From: Barrientosiimonas humi
GTDB taxonomy: Bacteria > Actinomycetota > Actinomycetes > Actinomycetales > Dermatophilaceae
Length of the DNA stretch: 64,000 nucleotides
Reading direction: 5' to 3'
Assembly (NCBI RefSeq): GCF_006716095.1
Contig: NZ_VFOK01000001.1
Coordinates: forward strand, 62,001 to 126,000
A program made the translations under genes and the position numbers. Each line of letters begins with the position of its first letter. The first letter of the stretch is position 1. The notes beneath the pieces are model-generated. The model ran no database searches, had not been told where the DNA came from, and saw only the letters and a program-made list of their open reading frames with translations. Shown here piece by piece: positions 7,756-51,485 of the stretch.

Positions 7756-7859
7756 GGTGGTCGAGTAGCCCGGCCAACCACGGTGGTCGAGCAAGGCGGC
7801 TGACCACGGTGGTCGAGTAAGGCGGCTGACCACGGTGGTCGAGTAGGCCGGAGCGCTAG
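7756..7859 (+). repeat. 26-bp tandem repeat, four starts (GGTGGTCGAG family)
   Basis: Copies of GGTGGTCGAG start at 7756, 7782, 7808 and 7834, exactly 26 bases apart, with a variable second half (mostly AAGGCGGCTGACCAC). The fourth copy runs into the left arm of the inverted repeat. The array lies in the gene-free block 7708-8375. It belongs to the same GGTCGAG/GTATCGAGACC repeat family as the sequences near 8325 and 27173. Confidence 0.8.
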
Positions 7860-8284
7860 CGGAGGCCGTATCGAGACCCGTCGGCTTGGTCTTGAGTCAC
7901 CGAAAGGCGCCGGGAGGCGGAAGTCGGTCCGTGGTCGGCTGGTCTGGCGGCTCGCGGTGGTGACGTTTCTGACAGAGCCTGACGTTGTTGACAGTCGTGC
8001 GTGCCGTAGCAGTCCTTTGTGTCAACAACGCACTGTCGTGTCGAGATCGTGGGGTGCTGTCAGGACCGACCCCGCCCAGACTGGCCAGAAGCTCCCAGAC
8101 TGGTCAGTTGCAACCGACCAGTCTGTGAGTTCGTGACCACTCTGGCGATGTACGCCATCGGCGACTCGCGAGAACGACGTCACCCCAGGCGTACTCACGC
8201 CTCCCGGCGCCTTTCGGTCACCACCGAGCGCGGTGACCGGGTCTCGATACGGGCTCCGCTGCGCTCCGGCCTACTCGACCACCT
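7834..8284. repeat. 451-bp element with ~86-bp inverted terminal repeats, non-coding
   Basis: The left arm (7834-7919) and right arm (8198-8284) are inverted copies in two blocks. The outer block holds GGTCGAGTAGGCCGGAGCGC and GTATCGAGACCC, and the inner block is ACCGAAAGGCGCCGGGAGGCG. A non-matching spacer of about 16 bases lies between the blocks in both arms. The ~280-base centre has no convincing gene, is less GC-rich and contains a separate palindrome (8096-8125). Long terminal inverted repeats around a short non-coding core resemble a non-autonomous mobile element, but I see no clear target-site duplication. The remaining parts of 7708-8375 are tandem repeats. Confidence 0.55.
8096..8125. 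promoter_or_regulatory. 30-base palindrome inside the repeat element
   Basis: Perfect 10-base arms, CAGACTGGTC and GACCAGTCTG, flank a 10-base centre containing TTGCAA. A further half-site, CAGACTGGCC, lies 19 bases upstream (8077-8086). It could be a protein-binding site or a hairpin in a small transcript; no gene starts directly next to it. Confidence 0.4.
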
Positions 8285-8324
8285 TGGCCGGTCTCGATAC
8301 GGACTCGCCTAGCGGCTCGCCCTA

Positions 8325-8396
8325 CTCGACCAGCTTTGGCTGCTCGACCAGCTTTGGCTGCTCGACCAGCTTTGGCTACTCGACCGGCTTGGGCTG
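8325..8396. repeat. 18-bp tandem repeat reaching into the SDR gene
   Basis: Four copies of CTCGACCAGCTTTGGCTG or close variants start at 8325, 8343, 8361 and 8379. The last copy, which has diverged, encodes the final residues and the stop codon (8376-8378) of the SDR gene on the minus strand. An 18-base unit of the same kind occurs twice at about 27249-27283. Confidence 0.8.
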
Positions 8397-9236
8397 GGCG
8401 AGGGAGTCGTACCGCTTGGCGACGAGGTCCTGGTAGCGCGAGCCGAGGACCTTGGCCACCGTGTGCAGCAGGTGGGCGTCCCCGCCGACGAGCACCCGGG
8501 CCTTGCCCGCGAGCATGCCGTCGAAGATCACCTCGGCGGCCTTCTCCGGCGTGGTCCGGGCGAGCTTCTTGTCGAACAGCCGGGCGGTGCGCGCACCGTC
8601 CTCGCCCTCGGCGTAGCGCGCGTTGCGGGCGATCGCGGTCTTGATGCCTCCCGGGTGCACGACCGTGAGCGTCACGGGGGCGCCCTCGATGAGCAGCTCC
8701 TCGCGCAGCGACTCGGAGAAGCCGCGGACGGCGTACTTCGCTGCGTTGTAAGCGGATTGGCCGGGCATGCTGAGCAGTCCGAACAGGCTGGAGATGTTGA
8801 CCAGGTGACCGTCGCTGGAGGCCTTGAGGTGCGGCAGGAACTCCTTGCTGCCGTGCACGACGCCCCAGAAGTTGATGCCCATGATCCAGTCGAAGTCGTC
8901 GTAGGTCAGCTTCTGGAACTGGCCGGTGAGGGAGACGCCGGCGTTGTTGACCACCACGTCGACGACGCCGTAGTGCTCGGCCACGGCGGTGGCGTAACCG
9001 GCCATCGCGGCCCGGTCGGCCACGTCGACCTTGTCGGTGAGCACCGCTGCGGCGCCGGACAGCTCGGCCTGGCGGGCGGTCTCGGCGAGCCCCTCGCCGT
9101 CGACGTCGCTCAGCGCGAGCCGGGCGCCGTCACGGGCCGCGCGCAGGGCGAGCGCCCGGCCGATGCCGGAGCCGGCGCCGGTGATGACGACGACCTTGTC
9201 GCGCAGGGGAGGGGTGGCGCCTTCGGTGCTGCTCAT
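8376..9236 (-). CDS. SDR family oxidoreductase, coupled to the EthA-like gene
   Basis: This classical short-chain dehydrogenase of 286 residues has the cofactor motif TGAGSGIG (residues 19-26), the NNAG motif (97-100) and a catalytic Ser149/150-Tyr163-Lys167 set in the SAYNAAK context. A C-terminal extension of about 60 residues (AKRYDSLAQ end) is common in SDRs that pair with flavin monooxygenases. Its start overlaps the stop of the monooxygenase by 4 bases, so the two are made together. A plausible role is interconverting the alcohol and ketone substrate of the Baeyer-Villiger enzyme; this is inference. The stop codon lies in the 18-bp repeat. Confidence 0.88.
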   Translation of the reverse strand: MSSTEGATPPLRDKVVVITGAGSGIGRALALRAARDGARLALSDVDGEGLAETARQAELSGAAAVLTDKVDVADRAAMAGYATAVAEHYGVVDVVVNNAGVSLTGQFQKLTYDDFDWIMGINFWGVVHGSKEFLPHLKASSDGHLVNISSLFGLLSMPGQSAYNAAKYAVRGFSESLREELLIEGAPVTLTVVHPGGIKTAIARNARYAEGEDGARTARLFDKKLARTTPEKAAEVIFDGMLAGKARVLVGGDAHLLHTVAKVLGSRYQDLVAKRYDSLAQPKPVE

Positions 9237-39197: not shown

Positions 39198-39818
39198 GTG
39201 CGTACCGAGATCTCCGTGGCCGACCTCGAGCCCCGCCGGGCCTACCGCCTGCTGACCTCCACCGTGCTGCCGCGCCCCATCGCCTGGGTGTCGAGCCGGT
39301 CGGCCGACGGCGTCGACAACCTCGCGCCGCACTCGTTCTTCACCGTCGCCTCGAGCCGGCCGCCGGTCGTGCAGTTCACCTCGACCGGCGTGAAGGACAC
39401 GCTGCGCAACGTGCGCGCCACCGAGGAGTTCGTCGTCAACCTCGCGCCCGAGTGGCTGCAGCGTGAGATCAACGAGACCGGCACCGACTTCCCGCCCGGC
39501 GTCAGCGAGTTCGCCGCCGTCGGCATCGAGACCGAGCCGTCGCGCACCGTCGCCCCGCCCCGAGTCGCGGGCTCGCCCGTCGCGCTGGAGTGCCGGCTGC
39601 ACCAGCTCGTCGAGGTCGGCGACAGCACCCTCGTGCTCGGCGAGGTGCTGCACGTTGCCGTCGCCGAGCAGGCCATGTCGCCCGAGGACGACCTGCCGCT
39701 GCCCGAGCGCCTGGCCCCCATGGCCCGCCTCGGCCGCAACCAGTGGGCCACCCTCGGTGAGATCCGCGAGGTCCCGCGCGAGACGTACGCCCAGCGCCAG
39801 CAGCGCCTCGCCGACTGA
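39198..39818 (+). CDS. Flavin reductase-like domain protein
   Basis: This 206-residue FMN-binding split-barrel protein is of the DIM6/NTAB (flavin_reduct) family: PRPIAWVSSRSADGVDNLAPHSFF near the N-terminus is shown by the pieces PRPIAW and NLAPHSFF, followed by KDTLRN and EFVVNL. Relatives bind or reduce FMN, but many have unknown substrates. GTG 39198 is the first start in frame. It is divergent from radA and followed by a repeat block. Confidence 0.8.
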   Translation: MRTEISVADLEPRRAYRLLTSTVLPRPIAWVSSRSADGVDNLAPHSFFTVASSRPPVVQFTSTGVKDTLRNVRATEEFVVNLAPEWLQREINETGTDFPPGVSEFAAVGIETEPSRTVAPPRVAGSPVALECRLHQLVEVGDSTLVLGEVLHVAVAEQAMSPEDDLPLPERLAPMARLGRNQWATLGEIREVPRETYAQRQQRLAD

Positions 39819-39839
39819 CCCACGCCCCCACCGCCTGCC

Positions 39840-39994
39840 GCATTTCGTGCACCAGTGAACGATCTGAGCAGGGTCACCCCCGGGATCCCGGGCCCGGGCC
39901 TCCGCATTTCGTGCACCGGTGAACGATCTGGGGTGGGTCACCCCTGGGATCCCGGGCCTGGCCTCCGCATTTCGTGCACCGGTGAACGAAATGC
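39840..39994 (+). repeat. 63-64-bp tandem repeat, 2.4 copies
   Basis: Units starting GCATTTCGTGCACC(A/G)GTGAACGA begin at 39840, 39904 and 39967. Full units continue with a GGGTCACCCC-type stretch and the GGGATCCCGGGCC palindrome. The final 28 bases (39967-39994) form an almost perfect palindrome, GCATTTCGTGCAC to GTGAACGAAATGC. The array occupies the 452-base gap 39819-40270, which contains no gene. Confidence 0.8.
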
Positions 39995-42040: not shown

Positions 42041-43042
42041 GTGCCCGACACCCCGCAGCCCCGCAAGAAGGGCACCCGTGCACGCCCCGCCAAGGCCGTG
42101 AGCCAGGCCGCGAAGCGGGTGCGTCAGGCGGCCGATCCCGGGCGCAAGGCCGGCGACTCGCGCAAGCCGAAGCCCGAGCCGCTGGCCCCGCCCGAGCCGG
42201 GTCGCGCCCCCGCCCGCACCGCGCCGCGGGTCGAGCCGGAGCGGCGCGCGCTGCAGGTCCCCGACGCCAAGGTCGGGCTGTCCACCGCCTCGGTCTATCC
42301 GCGCGGCGCCGCCTCGGCGTTCGAGCTCGCCGGGCGGCTGGGCTACGACGCGGTGGAGGTCATGGTCTGGACCGAGCCGGTCAGCCAGGAGGCGGGTGCG
42401 CTGCGCGGTCTCGCCGAGCTGCACGAGGTCGAGATCTGCTCGATCCACGCCCCGACCCTGCTGCTGACGCAGCGGGTCTGGGGCACCGAGCCGTGGGACA
42501 AGGTCGACCGCTCCATCGAGCTCGCCGAGGAGGTGGGGGCCTCCACGGTGGTGCTCCACCCGCCGTTCCGCTGGCAGCGCGACTACGCCCTGGAGTTCGT
42601 CGAGGGGGTGGCCGAGCGCGAGGAGCGCACCGAGGTGCGGCTGGCGGTCGAGAACATGTTCCCCTGGCGGGCCCGTGCCCGCGAGATGCAGGCCTACCTG
42701 CCGCACTGGGACCCCGTCGACGTCGACTACGACCACGTCACCCTCGACCTGTCGCACACCGCCACCGCCGGGTCCGACGCGCTCGCGATGGCCAACGCCC
42801 TCGGCGACCGCCTGACCCACGTGCACCTCGCCGACGGGAGCGGGTCGTACAAGGACGAGCACCTGGTGCCCGGCCGCGGCACCCAACCCTGCGCCGAGCT
42901 GCTGGAATCGCTTGCGGCACAAGACTTCTCGGGATCGATCGTGGTCGAGGTCGGCACCCGCCGTCTCGACGACGAGCAGCGCGAGCTCGACCTGGCCGAG
43001 GCGCTCGCGTTCGCCCGGCTGCACTTCGCCGCCCCCCGCTGA
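42041..43042 (+). CDS. Sugar phosphate isomerase/epimerase family TIM barrel
   Basis: This 333-residue protein has an Arg/Lys/Pro/Ala-rich, probably disordered N-terminal ~75 residues. The AP endonuclease family 2 (xylose isomerase-like) barrel follows, with metal-site motifs [42 protein letters not shown] and VVEVGTR. It matches the gene after ppx1 in mycobacteria (Rv0498); the substrate is unknown. The start GTG 42041 follows the ppx stop. The last 40 bases are part of a 64-bp tandem duplication. Confidence 0.82.
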
Positions 43043-43130
43043 CCGCGGGGCGACGAACGCGCCGGGGCTCGCGTTCGCCCGGCTGCACTTCGCCGCCCCC
43101 CGCTGACCGCGGGGCGACGAACGCTCCGGG
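43003..43130 (+). repeat. 64-bp tandem duplication of a gene end and its terminator hairpin
   Basis: Copy one (43003-43066) includes the last codons, the stop codon and the hairpin of the isomerase gene; copy two (43067-43130) repeats it with one clear change (GCG to GCT). Each copy has the stem CCCCGC/GCGGGG (43034-43050 and 43098-43114) with the TGA in the loop, and an outer GCGTTCG/CGAACGC pairing. The doubled hairpin should end transcription well. Confidence 0.85.
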
Positions 43131-43137
43131 GCTCGGT

Positions 43138-43917
43138 TCAGTCGGTCGGCGTGGCGCTCGGCGCCGCCGAGGGGGTCGTCGAGGTGCTGCCCGTCCCCGT
43201 CGGAGAGACCGTCGGGCTCGACGACGGCGTCGTGGTGGTCGACGAGCTCGGCGTCGCCGGGCTGGTCGCCGAGGTGCCGGTCGATGCGGTCGAGGGGTTC
43301 GCCGCCGGCGCGCGCTGCACGGTCGCCGGGCGGGTGCCGCAGACGAGGGTGGGCGAGCCGACGACGATGTCGTCACCGGTGGCCGAGGCGGAGGGTCGCG
43401 GGACCGACACCCGCACGGTGATCGTGTACGTCGTCGCCGCCCCCGTGGTGAAGGTGTAGACGATGCCGTCCGGCTTGGCGCTGTCGGTGTTGTGGCTCAC
43501 CGACTGGGTGCCGACGCCGCTGACGGTGATGGTGGCGGTCTGCGTGTTCTGCACGTTCCACGCGACCACCGGGAACGTCATCGTGTAGGTGGTGTTCGGC
43601 GACAGGACCAGCGTGATGCTGGTCGAGACGGTCGCCGTCCCGGTGCCGGGGGCGGGGTCGCGGAACGCCCCGAACTGGGTGTCGGCGTTCATGAACCCCA
43701 GCCCGCCGGTCCCTGTGCTGGTCAGCCACCCGGTAGCGGACGCGTTGGTCCAGCTCCCTCTGAAGGCGACGCTCGGCACGCTCGCGCAGGGCGAGGCCGC
43801 CTGCGCGGGCGCGGCGCCGGCAACGGCGATCGTCGGCACCGTCCAGGCGGCGGCCTTCGCGACCGTTCGTCGACGGGGGCGGACCGTGGTCGGTGTTGCT
43901 GATTCGTGCGGCACCAT
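43138..43917 (-). CDS. Secreted protein with Tat-like signal and Ser/Thr/Pro-rich tail
   Basis: This 259-residue exported protein has a signal of the actinobacterial type RPRRRTVAKAAAW ending in AAPAQAAS. The middle domain (~residues 45-195) is rich in Thr, Val and Ser and looks like a beta-sandwich. A Ser/Thr/Pro-rich C-terminal ~65 residues may cross the wall. Two cysteines (ASPCAS and TLVCGT) could form one disulphide. I do not recognise a family. ATG 43917 has GGGAGG upstream. It is divergent from the ATP-grasp cassette and faces the doubled terminator. Confidence 0.65.
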   Translation of the reverse strand: MVPHESATPTTVRPRRRTVAKAAAWTVPTIAVAGAAPAQAASPCASVPSVAFRGSWTNASATGWLTSTGTGGLGFMNADTQFGAFRDPAPGTGTATVSTSITLVLSPNTTYTMTFPVVAWNVQNTQTATITVSGVGTQSVSHNTDSAKPDGIVYTFTTGAATTYTITVRVSVPRPSASATGDDIVVGSPTLVCGTRPATVQRAPAANPSTASTGTSATSPATPSSSTTTTPSSSPTVSPTGTGSTSTTPSAAPSATPTD

Positions 43918-49473: not shown

Positions 49474-50049
49474 ATGACGGCGATCACGGTGCGCGTCCTC
49501 GGGGACGACGATTGGCAGATCTACCGCGACATCCGCCTGGCAGCGCTGGAGGAGTCTCCCGACGCCTTCGCAGCCTCCAGGGAGCAGGAGCAGAGCTTCG
49601 ACGAAGACTTCTGGCGGCAGCGCATGGGGCGCTCCCGTCGACTGGTCGCCGAGCGCGACAGCAAGCCGGTCGGTGTGGTGTCGGTCGGTGACGTGATCGA
49701 CACCGAGGACGTCGACGAGGACGGCGACGACACCGAGGTCGTCGCCGAGATCTTCGGCCTGTGGGTCACCCCCGACCTGCGCGGCAAGGGCGTCGCCTGG
49801 CAGCTGGTCGAGGCCGGCGTGCAGCAGGCCCGGGCCGAGCAGCGCGACCACGTCGTCTACTGGGTCGGCACCGACAACGGCCGCGCCGTGGCGTTCGCCA
49901 GCAGCTACGGCTTCCGCCCCACCGACGCCCGGCGCCCGATGCGCGCCCAGGACGCCTCCGACGACGAGGACGACGACAACCTCGAGATGGCGATGGTCTA
50001 CCCGCTGGGCGGGGACCCGGGTGCGGTGCCGACGTCGGAGCCAGTCTGA
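49474..50049 (+). CDS. GNAT family N-acetyltransferase
   Basis: This 191-residue acetyltransferase has the acetyl-CoA loop VTPDLRGKGVAWQLVEAG after the strand AEIFGLWV. Two acidic stretches (EDVDEDGDDTE and SDDEDDDN) are unusual and of unknown meaning. The acceptor is unknown. Its stop codon TGA (50047-50049) is the first copy of an 87-bp repeat whose later copies carry ATG at the same place. Confidence 0.8.
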   Translation: MTAITVRVLGDDDWQIYRDIRLAALEESPDAFAASREQEQSFDEDFWRQRMGRSRRLVAERDSKPVGVVSVGDVIDTEDVDEDGDDTEVVAEIFGLWVTPDLRGKGVAWQLVEAGVQQARAEQRDHVVYWVGTDNGRAVAFASSYGFRPTDARRPMRAQDASDDEDDDNLEMAMVYPLGGDPGAVPTSEPV

Positions 50050-50260
50050 GCGGCGAGGAGCGCGCAGCGCAGGTTGGCGGCGAGGAACGAGCCGCCGGCC
50101 GGAGCGGAGTGCGACCGAGCGCGACAGCAGGCATGAGCGGCGAGGAGCGCGCAGCGCAGGTTGGCGGCGAGGAACGAGCCGGCGGCCGGAGCGGAGTGCG
50201 ACCGAGCGCGACAGCAGGCATGAGCGGCGAGGAGCGCGCAGCGCAGGTTGGCGGCGAGGA
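50047..50260 (+). repeat. 87-bp tandem repeat bridging two genes, 2.5 copies
   Basis: Units starting (A/C)TGAGCGGCGAGGAGCGCGC begin at 50047, 50134 and 50221, exactly 87 bases (29 codons) apart. The third is truncated and then repeats GGCGAGGAGCGCGC once more. In copy one the start triplet is CTG and supplies the stop of the GNAT gene; in copies two and three it is ATG (50133 and 50220) in frame with the deacetylase. Part of the unit (GGCGGCGAGGAACGAGCCG) also occurs inverted near 27187. Confidence 0.88.
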
Positions 50261-51485
50261 GCGCGCAGCGCAGGGTGTGGGCGAGGAGTCCCGCAGCCGG
50301 TTCTACTGGGACCCGAGCCTGACCCGGTACGACTTCGGGGCGGGGCACCCGATGAACCCGCTGCGGCTCGACCTCACCACCCGGCTGGCCGACGAGTTCG
50401 GCGTGCTTGACGCGCCCGGTCTGCAGGTGGTGGCGCCGCGGCTGCCCGACGCCGACGGGGCGTTCCTGCGCACGGTCCACACCGACGACTACATCCAGGC
50501 CGTGCGCCGGGCCTCGCTCGACCCTGCCGAGGCCGACCCGGCGTACGGGCTGGGCACCGAGGACGACCCGGCCTTCCCGGGCATGCACGAGGTGTCGACG
50601 CTGATCGCGGCGGGAACCCTGCAGGCCTGCCAGGACGTGTGGCGCGGCGAGACCGACCACGCCGTCAACATCGCCGGCGGGCTGCACCACGCGATGCCCG
50701 ACCGGGCGGCCGGGTTCTGCGTCTACAACGACGCCGCCATCGGCATCCAGTGGCTGCTCGACAACGGCGCCGAGCGGGTGGCCTACGTCGACATCGACGT
50801 GCACCACGGCGACGGCGTCGAGCAGGCGTTCTGGGACGACCCGCGGGTGCTGACCGTCTCGCTGCACGAGAGCGGCCGGGTGCTGTTCCCCGGCACCGGT
50901 TTCCCCGGCGACATCGGCGGGCCCGACGCCGAGGGGTCGGCCGTCAACGTCGCGCTGCCTCCGGGCACGGGCGACGCGGCGTGGCTGCGCGCGCTGCACT
51001 CGGTCGTCCCGCCGCTGCTGGAGGCCTTCCGCCCGCAGGTGCTGGTGACCCAGCAGGGCTGCGACTCCCACTACTCCGACCCGCTCGCGCACCTGGCGAT
51101 CTCGATCGACGCCCAGCGGACGGCGTACGACACCCTCCACCGGCTCGCGCACCGCCTCACCGGCGGGCGCTGGGTCGCGCTCGGCGGCGGCGGGTACGAG
51201 ATCGTCGACGTGGTGCCGCGCGCCTGGACCCACCTCGCGGCCATCGCGGCGCACGTGCCCGTCGACCTGGAGCAGCCGGTGCCGAGCGGCTGGCGCGAGC
51301 ACGTGCGCACCCTCGTCGGTCGCCCCGGCCCCGCGTCGATGGGCGACGGGGTGAGCGAGCACGGGGTGGTCTGGTACCGCTCGTGGCACAGCGGCTACGA
51401 CCCGGACAGCTCGCTGGACCAGGCGATCATGGCGACCCGCGAGGCCGTCTTCCCTCTCCACGGCCTCGACGTGTACTTCGATTGA
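50220..51485 (+). CDS. AcuC-like acetoin utilisation/histone deacetylase family protein
   Basis: This class I-type deacetylase has about 421 residues from ATG 50220. Zinc and charge-relay residues are visible in GLHHAM, GFCVYNDAA, YVDIDVHHGDG, CDSHYSDPL and GGGGYEI. Bacterial AcuC removes acetyl groups from acetyl-CoA synthetase, which controls acetate use. The N-terminal ~19 residues come from the 87-bp repeat; ATG 50133 would add 29 more and GTG 50277 would remove the repeat-coded part, so the start is uncertain. The proximity of a GNAT acetyltransferase may be functional (acetylation/deacetylation pair); this is inference. Confidence 0.85.
   Translation: MSGEERAAQVGGEERAAQGVGEESRSRFYWDPSLTRYDFGAGHPMNPLRLDLTTRLADEFGVLDAPGLQVVAPRLPDADGAFLRTVHTDDYIQAVRRASLDPAEADPAYGLGTEDDPAFPGMHEVSTLIAAGTLQACQDVWRGETDHAVNIAGGLHHAMPDRAAGFCVYNDAAIGIQWLLDNGAERVAYVDIDVHHGDGVEQAFWDDPRVLTVSLHESGRVLFPGTGFPGDIGGPDAEGSAVNVALPPGTGDAAWLRALHSVVPPLLEAFRPQVLVTQQGCDSHYSDPLAHLAISIDAQRTAYDTLHRLAHRLTGGRWVALGGGGYEIVDVVPRAWTHLAAIAAHVPVDLEQPVPSGWREHVRTLVGRPGPASMGDGVSEHGVVWYRSWHSGYDPDSSLDQAIMATREAVFPLHGLDVYFD

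Follow-up and report, generated by a model that had tools for sequence, protein, structure and literature searches.

The tandem array between a GNAT-family acetyltransferase gene and an AcuC-like deacetylase gene of Barrientosiimonas humi is, judged by its sequence and that of its relatives, most probably a start-type copy of a dispersed MIRU-like selfish element that would tolerate translational coupling and supply the start of AcuC. We put the probability of this reading at about 0.8. An element tolerated at gene junctions is a likelier cause of the array than a switch built for AcuC. The element family comprises two types. In start-type copies, found in B. humi and in genomes G123–G125 of another genus, the upstream stop codon lies 16 bases before the core (NTGAGCGGCGAGG...). 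Stop-type copies are located at gene ends in the remaining genomes.

Structure of the array and the start of AcuC

Within the window, that is the whole stretch of DNA analysed (64,000 nucleotides), the junction contains the following features:

49474–50049, + strand: GNAT-family acetyltransferase gene (Pfam Acetyltransf_1, 3e-15); the repeat opens with the three bases of its stop TGA (50047–50049)
50047–50133, + strand: repeat copy 1, 87 bp; CTG 50046 lies over the GNAT stop, in-frame GTG at 50109
50076–50097, + strand: covarying hairpin P3 of copy 1 (GGCGGC...GCCGCC), from covariation and RNA folding
50134–50220, + strand: repeat copy 2, 87 bp, 99% identical; ATG 50133 just before it is a candidate start, in-frame GTG at 50196
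50221–50269, + strand: partial copy 3, 94% identical over 49 bp; ATG 50220 just before it is a candidate start
50268–50288, + strand: further element-derived stretch, recognized by comparison with other copies, with GTG 50277 located 10 codons ahead of the conserved Trp of AcuC
50133–51485, + strand: AcuC-like gene of the histone-deacetylase fold (Pfam Hist_deacetyl, 1.4e-81, from residue 101 of the 479-residue frame)

The TRF call (period 87, 2.5 copies, 99% matches, 50047–50260) agrees with the sequence itself, in which 2.5 tandem copies of about 99% identity occupy 50047–50269 and element-derived sequence continues to about 50288. The 87-bp period reported in the initial annotation is real, with the third of its units being partial. 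The CTG of copy 1 over the GNAT stop and the in-frame ATGs at 50133 and 50220, described there as well, are seen in the sequence, and the preservation of the frame by a 29-codon unit is supported. The AcuC reading frame runs without stops from 50046 to 51485 and contains CTG 50046, GTG 50109, ATG 50133, GTG 50196, ATG 50220 and GTG 50277.

The conserved Trp of AcuC is located at 50307 and is preceded by just six residues that do not belong to the element, so that all possible AcuC start codons fall within element-derived sequence. This includes GTG 50277, which had been put forward as a possible start beyond the repeat. Since element-like sequence reaches about 50288 (GCGCAGGGTGTGGGCGAGGA, one base off the GCGCAGGGTGCGGGCGAGGA of other copies), this codon is element-derived, too. 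With no other start upstream of the conserved AcuC N-terminus, the earlier proposal that the repeat supplies the start is supported, while the notion of a local repeat has to give way to that of a dispersed family. The true start most plausibly lies somewhere in the repeat, at ATG 50133, ATG 50220 or GTG 50277, which would give proteins of 450, 421 and 402 residues, respectively. In nine relatives, GNAT adjoins AcuC without the repeat and the junction is a gap, not an overlap. In most of these nine, AcuC apparently starts about 9–15 residues ahead of the conserved Trp, judging from the sequence.

Further repeats are present in the window. A 64-bp tandem repeat at 43003–43139 (97%) duplicates a gene end including the stop codon, which lies within the hairpin CCCCGC-TGACC-GCGGGG, and is without the R1 core. 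Another 64-bp tandem repeat (91%, 39833–39989) follows soon after a stop codon at 39818. A second dispersed repeat, GGTCGAGTAG...CGTATCGAGACC, is found at 7756–7880 and 8240–8400 and also downstream of the element at L005, L009, L013 and L014; it sometimes stands directly behind a start-type element at the same junction.

Copies across the B. humi genome

A genome search with one unit, as proposed in the initial annotation, yields 18 near-full-length copies at 13 loci together with shorter ones in the 3.6-Mb B. humi genome, and copies at unlinked loci are up to 98% identical. Twenty regions were read with their flanks and a set of 15 sites was scored. Nearly all elements of this set share the orientation of the flanking genes, and the element begins at, or a few bases from, the upstream stop codon. 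The downstream gene is in frame with the element at 12 of the 15 sites. Two sites, the thiolase and response-regulator junctions, have a mini-ORF made by the element, with a stop that overlaps the following start or lies directly beside it. The remaining site (L007, G000:C1:1859494-1859578) carries a full element in frame within a PemK-like gene, to which it adds about 28 residues ahead of the region matched by Pfam. At least 13 of 15 sites in frame would be expected by chance with P 3e-5. As most copies are in-frame fusions, the 29-codon unit would represent an N-terminal tail. In-frame fusion and mini-ORF layouts both keep coupling, and the coupling of AcuC to its upstream gene that was suggested at the outset agrees with this genome-wide pattern.

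The occupied junctions belong to conserved operon pairs. By Pfam assignment, the pairs are GNAT–Hist_deacetyl, thiolase–SDR, PaaB–PaaC (paaB-paaC), RF-1–PrmC (prfA-prmC), chorismate synthase–shikimate kinase (aroC-aroK), DUF418–gamma-glutamyltranspeptidase, GalT–GalK (galT-galK), histidine phosphatase–AhpC/TSA, ThiE–ThiD (thiE-thiD), two ABC transporters, acyl-CoA dehydrogenase–carboxyl transferase, thymidylate synthase–NUDIX/DHFR (thyA) and CNNM/CBS–Era (era). At the site of a LuxR-type response regulator, the preceding gene has no Pfam identification and is taken as its histidine kinase by position alone.

The array had originally been read as a variable-number repeat, in which gain or loss of units would tune re-initiation and the level of AcuC. 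Unit number does vary, from 1 to about 2.5 per site and between genera at aroC-aroK (2.3 versus 1), and for M. tuberculosis fpg1 the length of an upstream tandem repeat correlates with the mRNA level (PMC2734929). However, the 87-bp unit is found at over a dozen unrelated operons, which argues against an AcuC-specific device. A consensus scan detected neither a promoter nor a terminator in the array, and no promoter-like match was found in the region. We consider a regulatory repeat improbable.

Empty sites and element ends

For two junctions, the state without the element can be read from relatives. aroC-aroK lacks the element in 28 relatives, where the genes are mostly separated by a short spacer or joined by a TGA/GTG (NTGA) overlap, and in B. 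humi and G125 the element is found exactly at that junction. The era junction lacks it in 29 relatives, again mostly with short spacers or NTGA overlaps. When both ends of the element are compared at 17 start-type sites, with end sequences transcribed by hand, the bases ahead of TGA agree at 12 (CA/CA, TA/TA, AG/AG, AA/AA, GG/GG, GA/GA; permutation P 5e-5). These agreeing bases look like a short target duplication. The GNAT–AcuC site departs from the matched-end pattern, with CTGA upstream and CATGA downstream. It is less typical because it carries CTGA and not ATGA and because the relatives show a gap and not an overlap.

In the other genus, seven of nine start-type copies are fused in frame and one ends on the next start, ATGA. 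At L147 of G124, the core is five bases longer, which results in a mini-ORF ending on ATGA, the MIRU layout. Mini-ORFs ending at the next start are limited to L002, L003 and L147. Two start-type sites are common to both genera, acyl-CoA dehydrogenase–carboxylase and aroC-aroK. These shared sites suggest that some copies are old and have been kept, as would also be expected if they had a function.

Relatives of the element and their structure

An exact-pattern scan of the genome contigs returned no match for the element, and relatives were therefore sought with a covariance model of the core. Within the bacterial family, this model matches in 32 of 186 genomes and 21 of 53 genera; matches elsewhere in the class are rare. 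From the matches, 80 further regions were fetched and 94 sites were scored. TGA is the upstream stop at 90 of the 94, mostly at a fixed distance of 9–10 or 16 bases before the core. At least 150 codons are open upstream at 82 of the 94, a count favoured by the choice of the stop with the longest open frame.

Hairpin P3 shows strong covariation, with 114 cells changed on both sides compared to 36.7 (sd 3.9) in shuffles; the alignment used was fitted to the model, and an 18-sequence MAFFT alignment gives the same direction. Helix P2 covaries strongly as well, with 3.47 of 4 pairs versus 2.70 (sd 0.06). The 3' arm of a stop-type copy shows complementarity to the final codons of the gene that carries this copy, over a mean run of 5.41, compared to 3.69 in permutations (sd 0.11, maximum 4.09), as in GGCGTC-TGA...GACGCC and GGCGCAG-TGA...CTGCGCC. 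The same complementarity was looked for in start-type copies and is absent (3.65 versus 3.58). When folded as RNA, two stop-type copies and the GNAT–AcuC copy each give one long rod. Different genera carry stop-type elements at corresponding gene ends, with host-specific hairpin loops (L122, L128, L140, L164, L168, L181, L195, L200 and others), and a recurrent gene end '...GGMGF*' that carries such an element looks like groEL. Of 22 tandem spacings in the stop-type arrays of L121–L200, 13 are 2 mod 3, which may reflect shared ancestry or a frame effect.

The covariation of P3, the pairing of P2, the complementarity of the stop-type arm to the gene end and the presence of the element at orthologous gene ends in many genera, including the groEL-like one, would all be expected of a structured RNA with a post-stop role in mRNA stability, termination or re-initiation that is kept by selection on the RNA. 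Yet gene-end pairing is missing from the start-type, Rfam contains no covariance-model match for the element, and just 32 of 186 genomes show matches. The pairing may equally serve a DNA hairpin or stem from template-switch repair of near-palindromes. Such an RNA is possible, but we regard it as unlikely to account for the array.

The stop-type arm matched to the gene end is a clue to insertion or function of such elements. Somewhat more speculatively, the wider family may be a new kind of element that targets stop codons and has its 3' arm written from, or chosen by, pairing with the host's last codons, so that a small element would gain a locus-specific, guide-like arm as it inserts. The start-type branch would have given up this arm and would keep the reading frame between coupled genes. 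A literature search, with most subscription journals outside its reach, found no description of the family.

The frame is kept in nearly all start-type copies of two genera, as it would be if the 29-residue tail were a functional protein module for targeting or interaction. This tail, however, is joined to unrelated enzymes, and the Pfam matches of the fused proteins begin beyond it. In addition, stop-type tandem spacings of 0, 1 and 2 mod 3 all occur, with no frame rule like that of the start-type. A functional module is very improbable.

Proposed model of a selfish element at coupled junctions

We propose that, in B. humi and in another genus of the family, insertion of the 87-bp element took place between the stop of a gene and the start of the following gene in the same orientation. 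The unit has a stop-free frame and a length that is a multiple of three; it opens at the upstream stop and usually closes in a new NTGA. This allows a single copy or several to fit a coupled junction with neither gene broken. The end of the upstream protein would be unchanged, ribosomes would re-initiate at an NTG within the element, and the downstream protein would gain a low-complexity tail of 29 residues per unit. A few sites would have, in place of the tail, a mini-ORF that terminates on the start codon of the following gene. At GNAT–AcuC, the element would have displaced the native start region, so that AcuC would now be started from repeat sequence. We infer past mobility from the distribution and the empty sites, and we also infer re-initiation and a near-neutral, selfish spread. 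These fusions suggest that the N-termini of core enzymes such as AroK, ThiD, PrmC and GalK can be rewritten by an element.

Comparison with known elements

Like REP/RAYT and IS200/IS605-type elements, members of the family form hairpins and adjoin a short, fixed target. In contrast to these systems, the bases at the junction occur in duplicate, once at either end of the element, and a Y1 transposase as mobiliser is rejected since PF01797 is absent from the genome. HEARO/IscB elements insert at ATGA and were considered as an identity for the element, for which Rfam gave no match.

Rickettsia palindromic elements (RPE) are small palindrome-like elements that form in-frame parts of unrelated proteins (PMC10969869). 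The B. humi element resembles them by in-frame insertion into unrelated proteins, including the PemK-like gene. Whereas RPE of about 150 bp lie within ORFs and belong to rickettsial families, the element is 87 bp long and is located at gene junctions of an actinobacterium.

MIRUs are repeats of 40–100 bp, both dispersed and in tandem (PMC2734929), and according to a review they insert at start codons and provide a mini-ORF with -4 coupling to the gene that follows (PMC12548453). The 87-bp element likewise is a short GC-rich repeat within this size range, dispersed and in tandem, and occupies NTGA stop/start overlaps of co-oriented genes, with CTGA at the GNAT–AcuC site itself. A two-component-system junction is occupied in both cases. 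Using what we took to be the RegX3 sequence as query, an assumption confirmed by matches of 98–99%, we found that senX3-regX3 carries a MIRU-like insertion in two Mycobacterium genomes and is an empty site in two others. Translation of the insertions gives mini-ORFs that end in the ATGA of the following gene (-4 overlap). Homology to MIRUs is rejected, as these real insertions show no significant similarity to the element family. Unlike the MIRU mini-ORFs, which stop on the next start, the 87-bp unit contains no stop and at most sites continues in frame into the downstream gene. Its family is further distinguished by a hairpin core with strong covariation and, among relatives, by an arm matched to the gene end. 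The element is MIRU-like in position and tolerance, yet it is no MIRU by sequence, and its in-frame fusion sets it apart. MIRUs are the basis of tuberculosis strain typing and have been described as mycobacterial. Since an unrelated element occupies this niche in a different actinobacterial family, small mobile DNA may generally find a safe harbour at coupled stop/start junctions.
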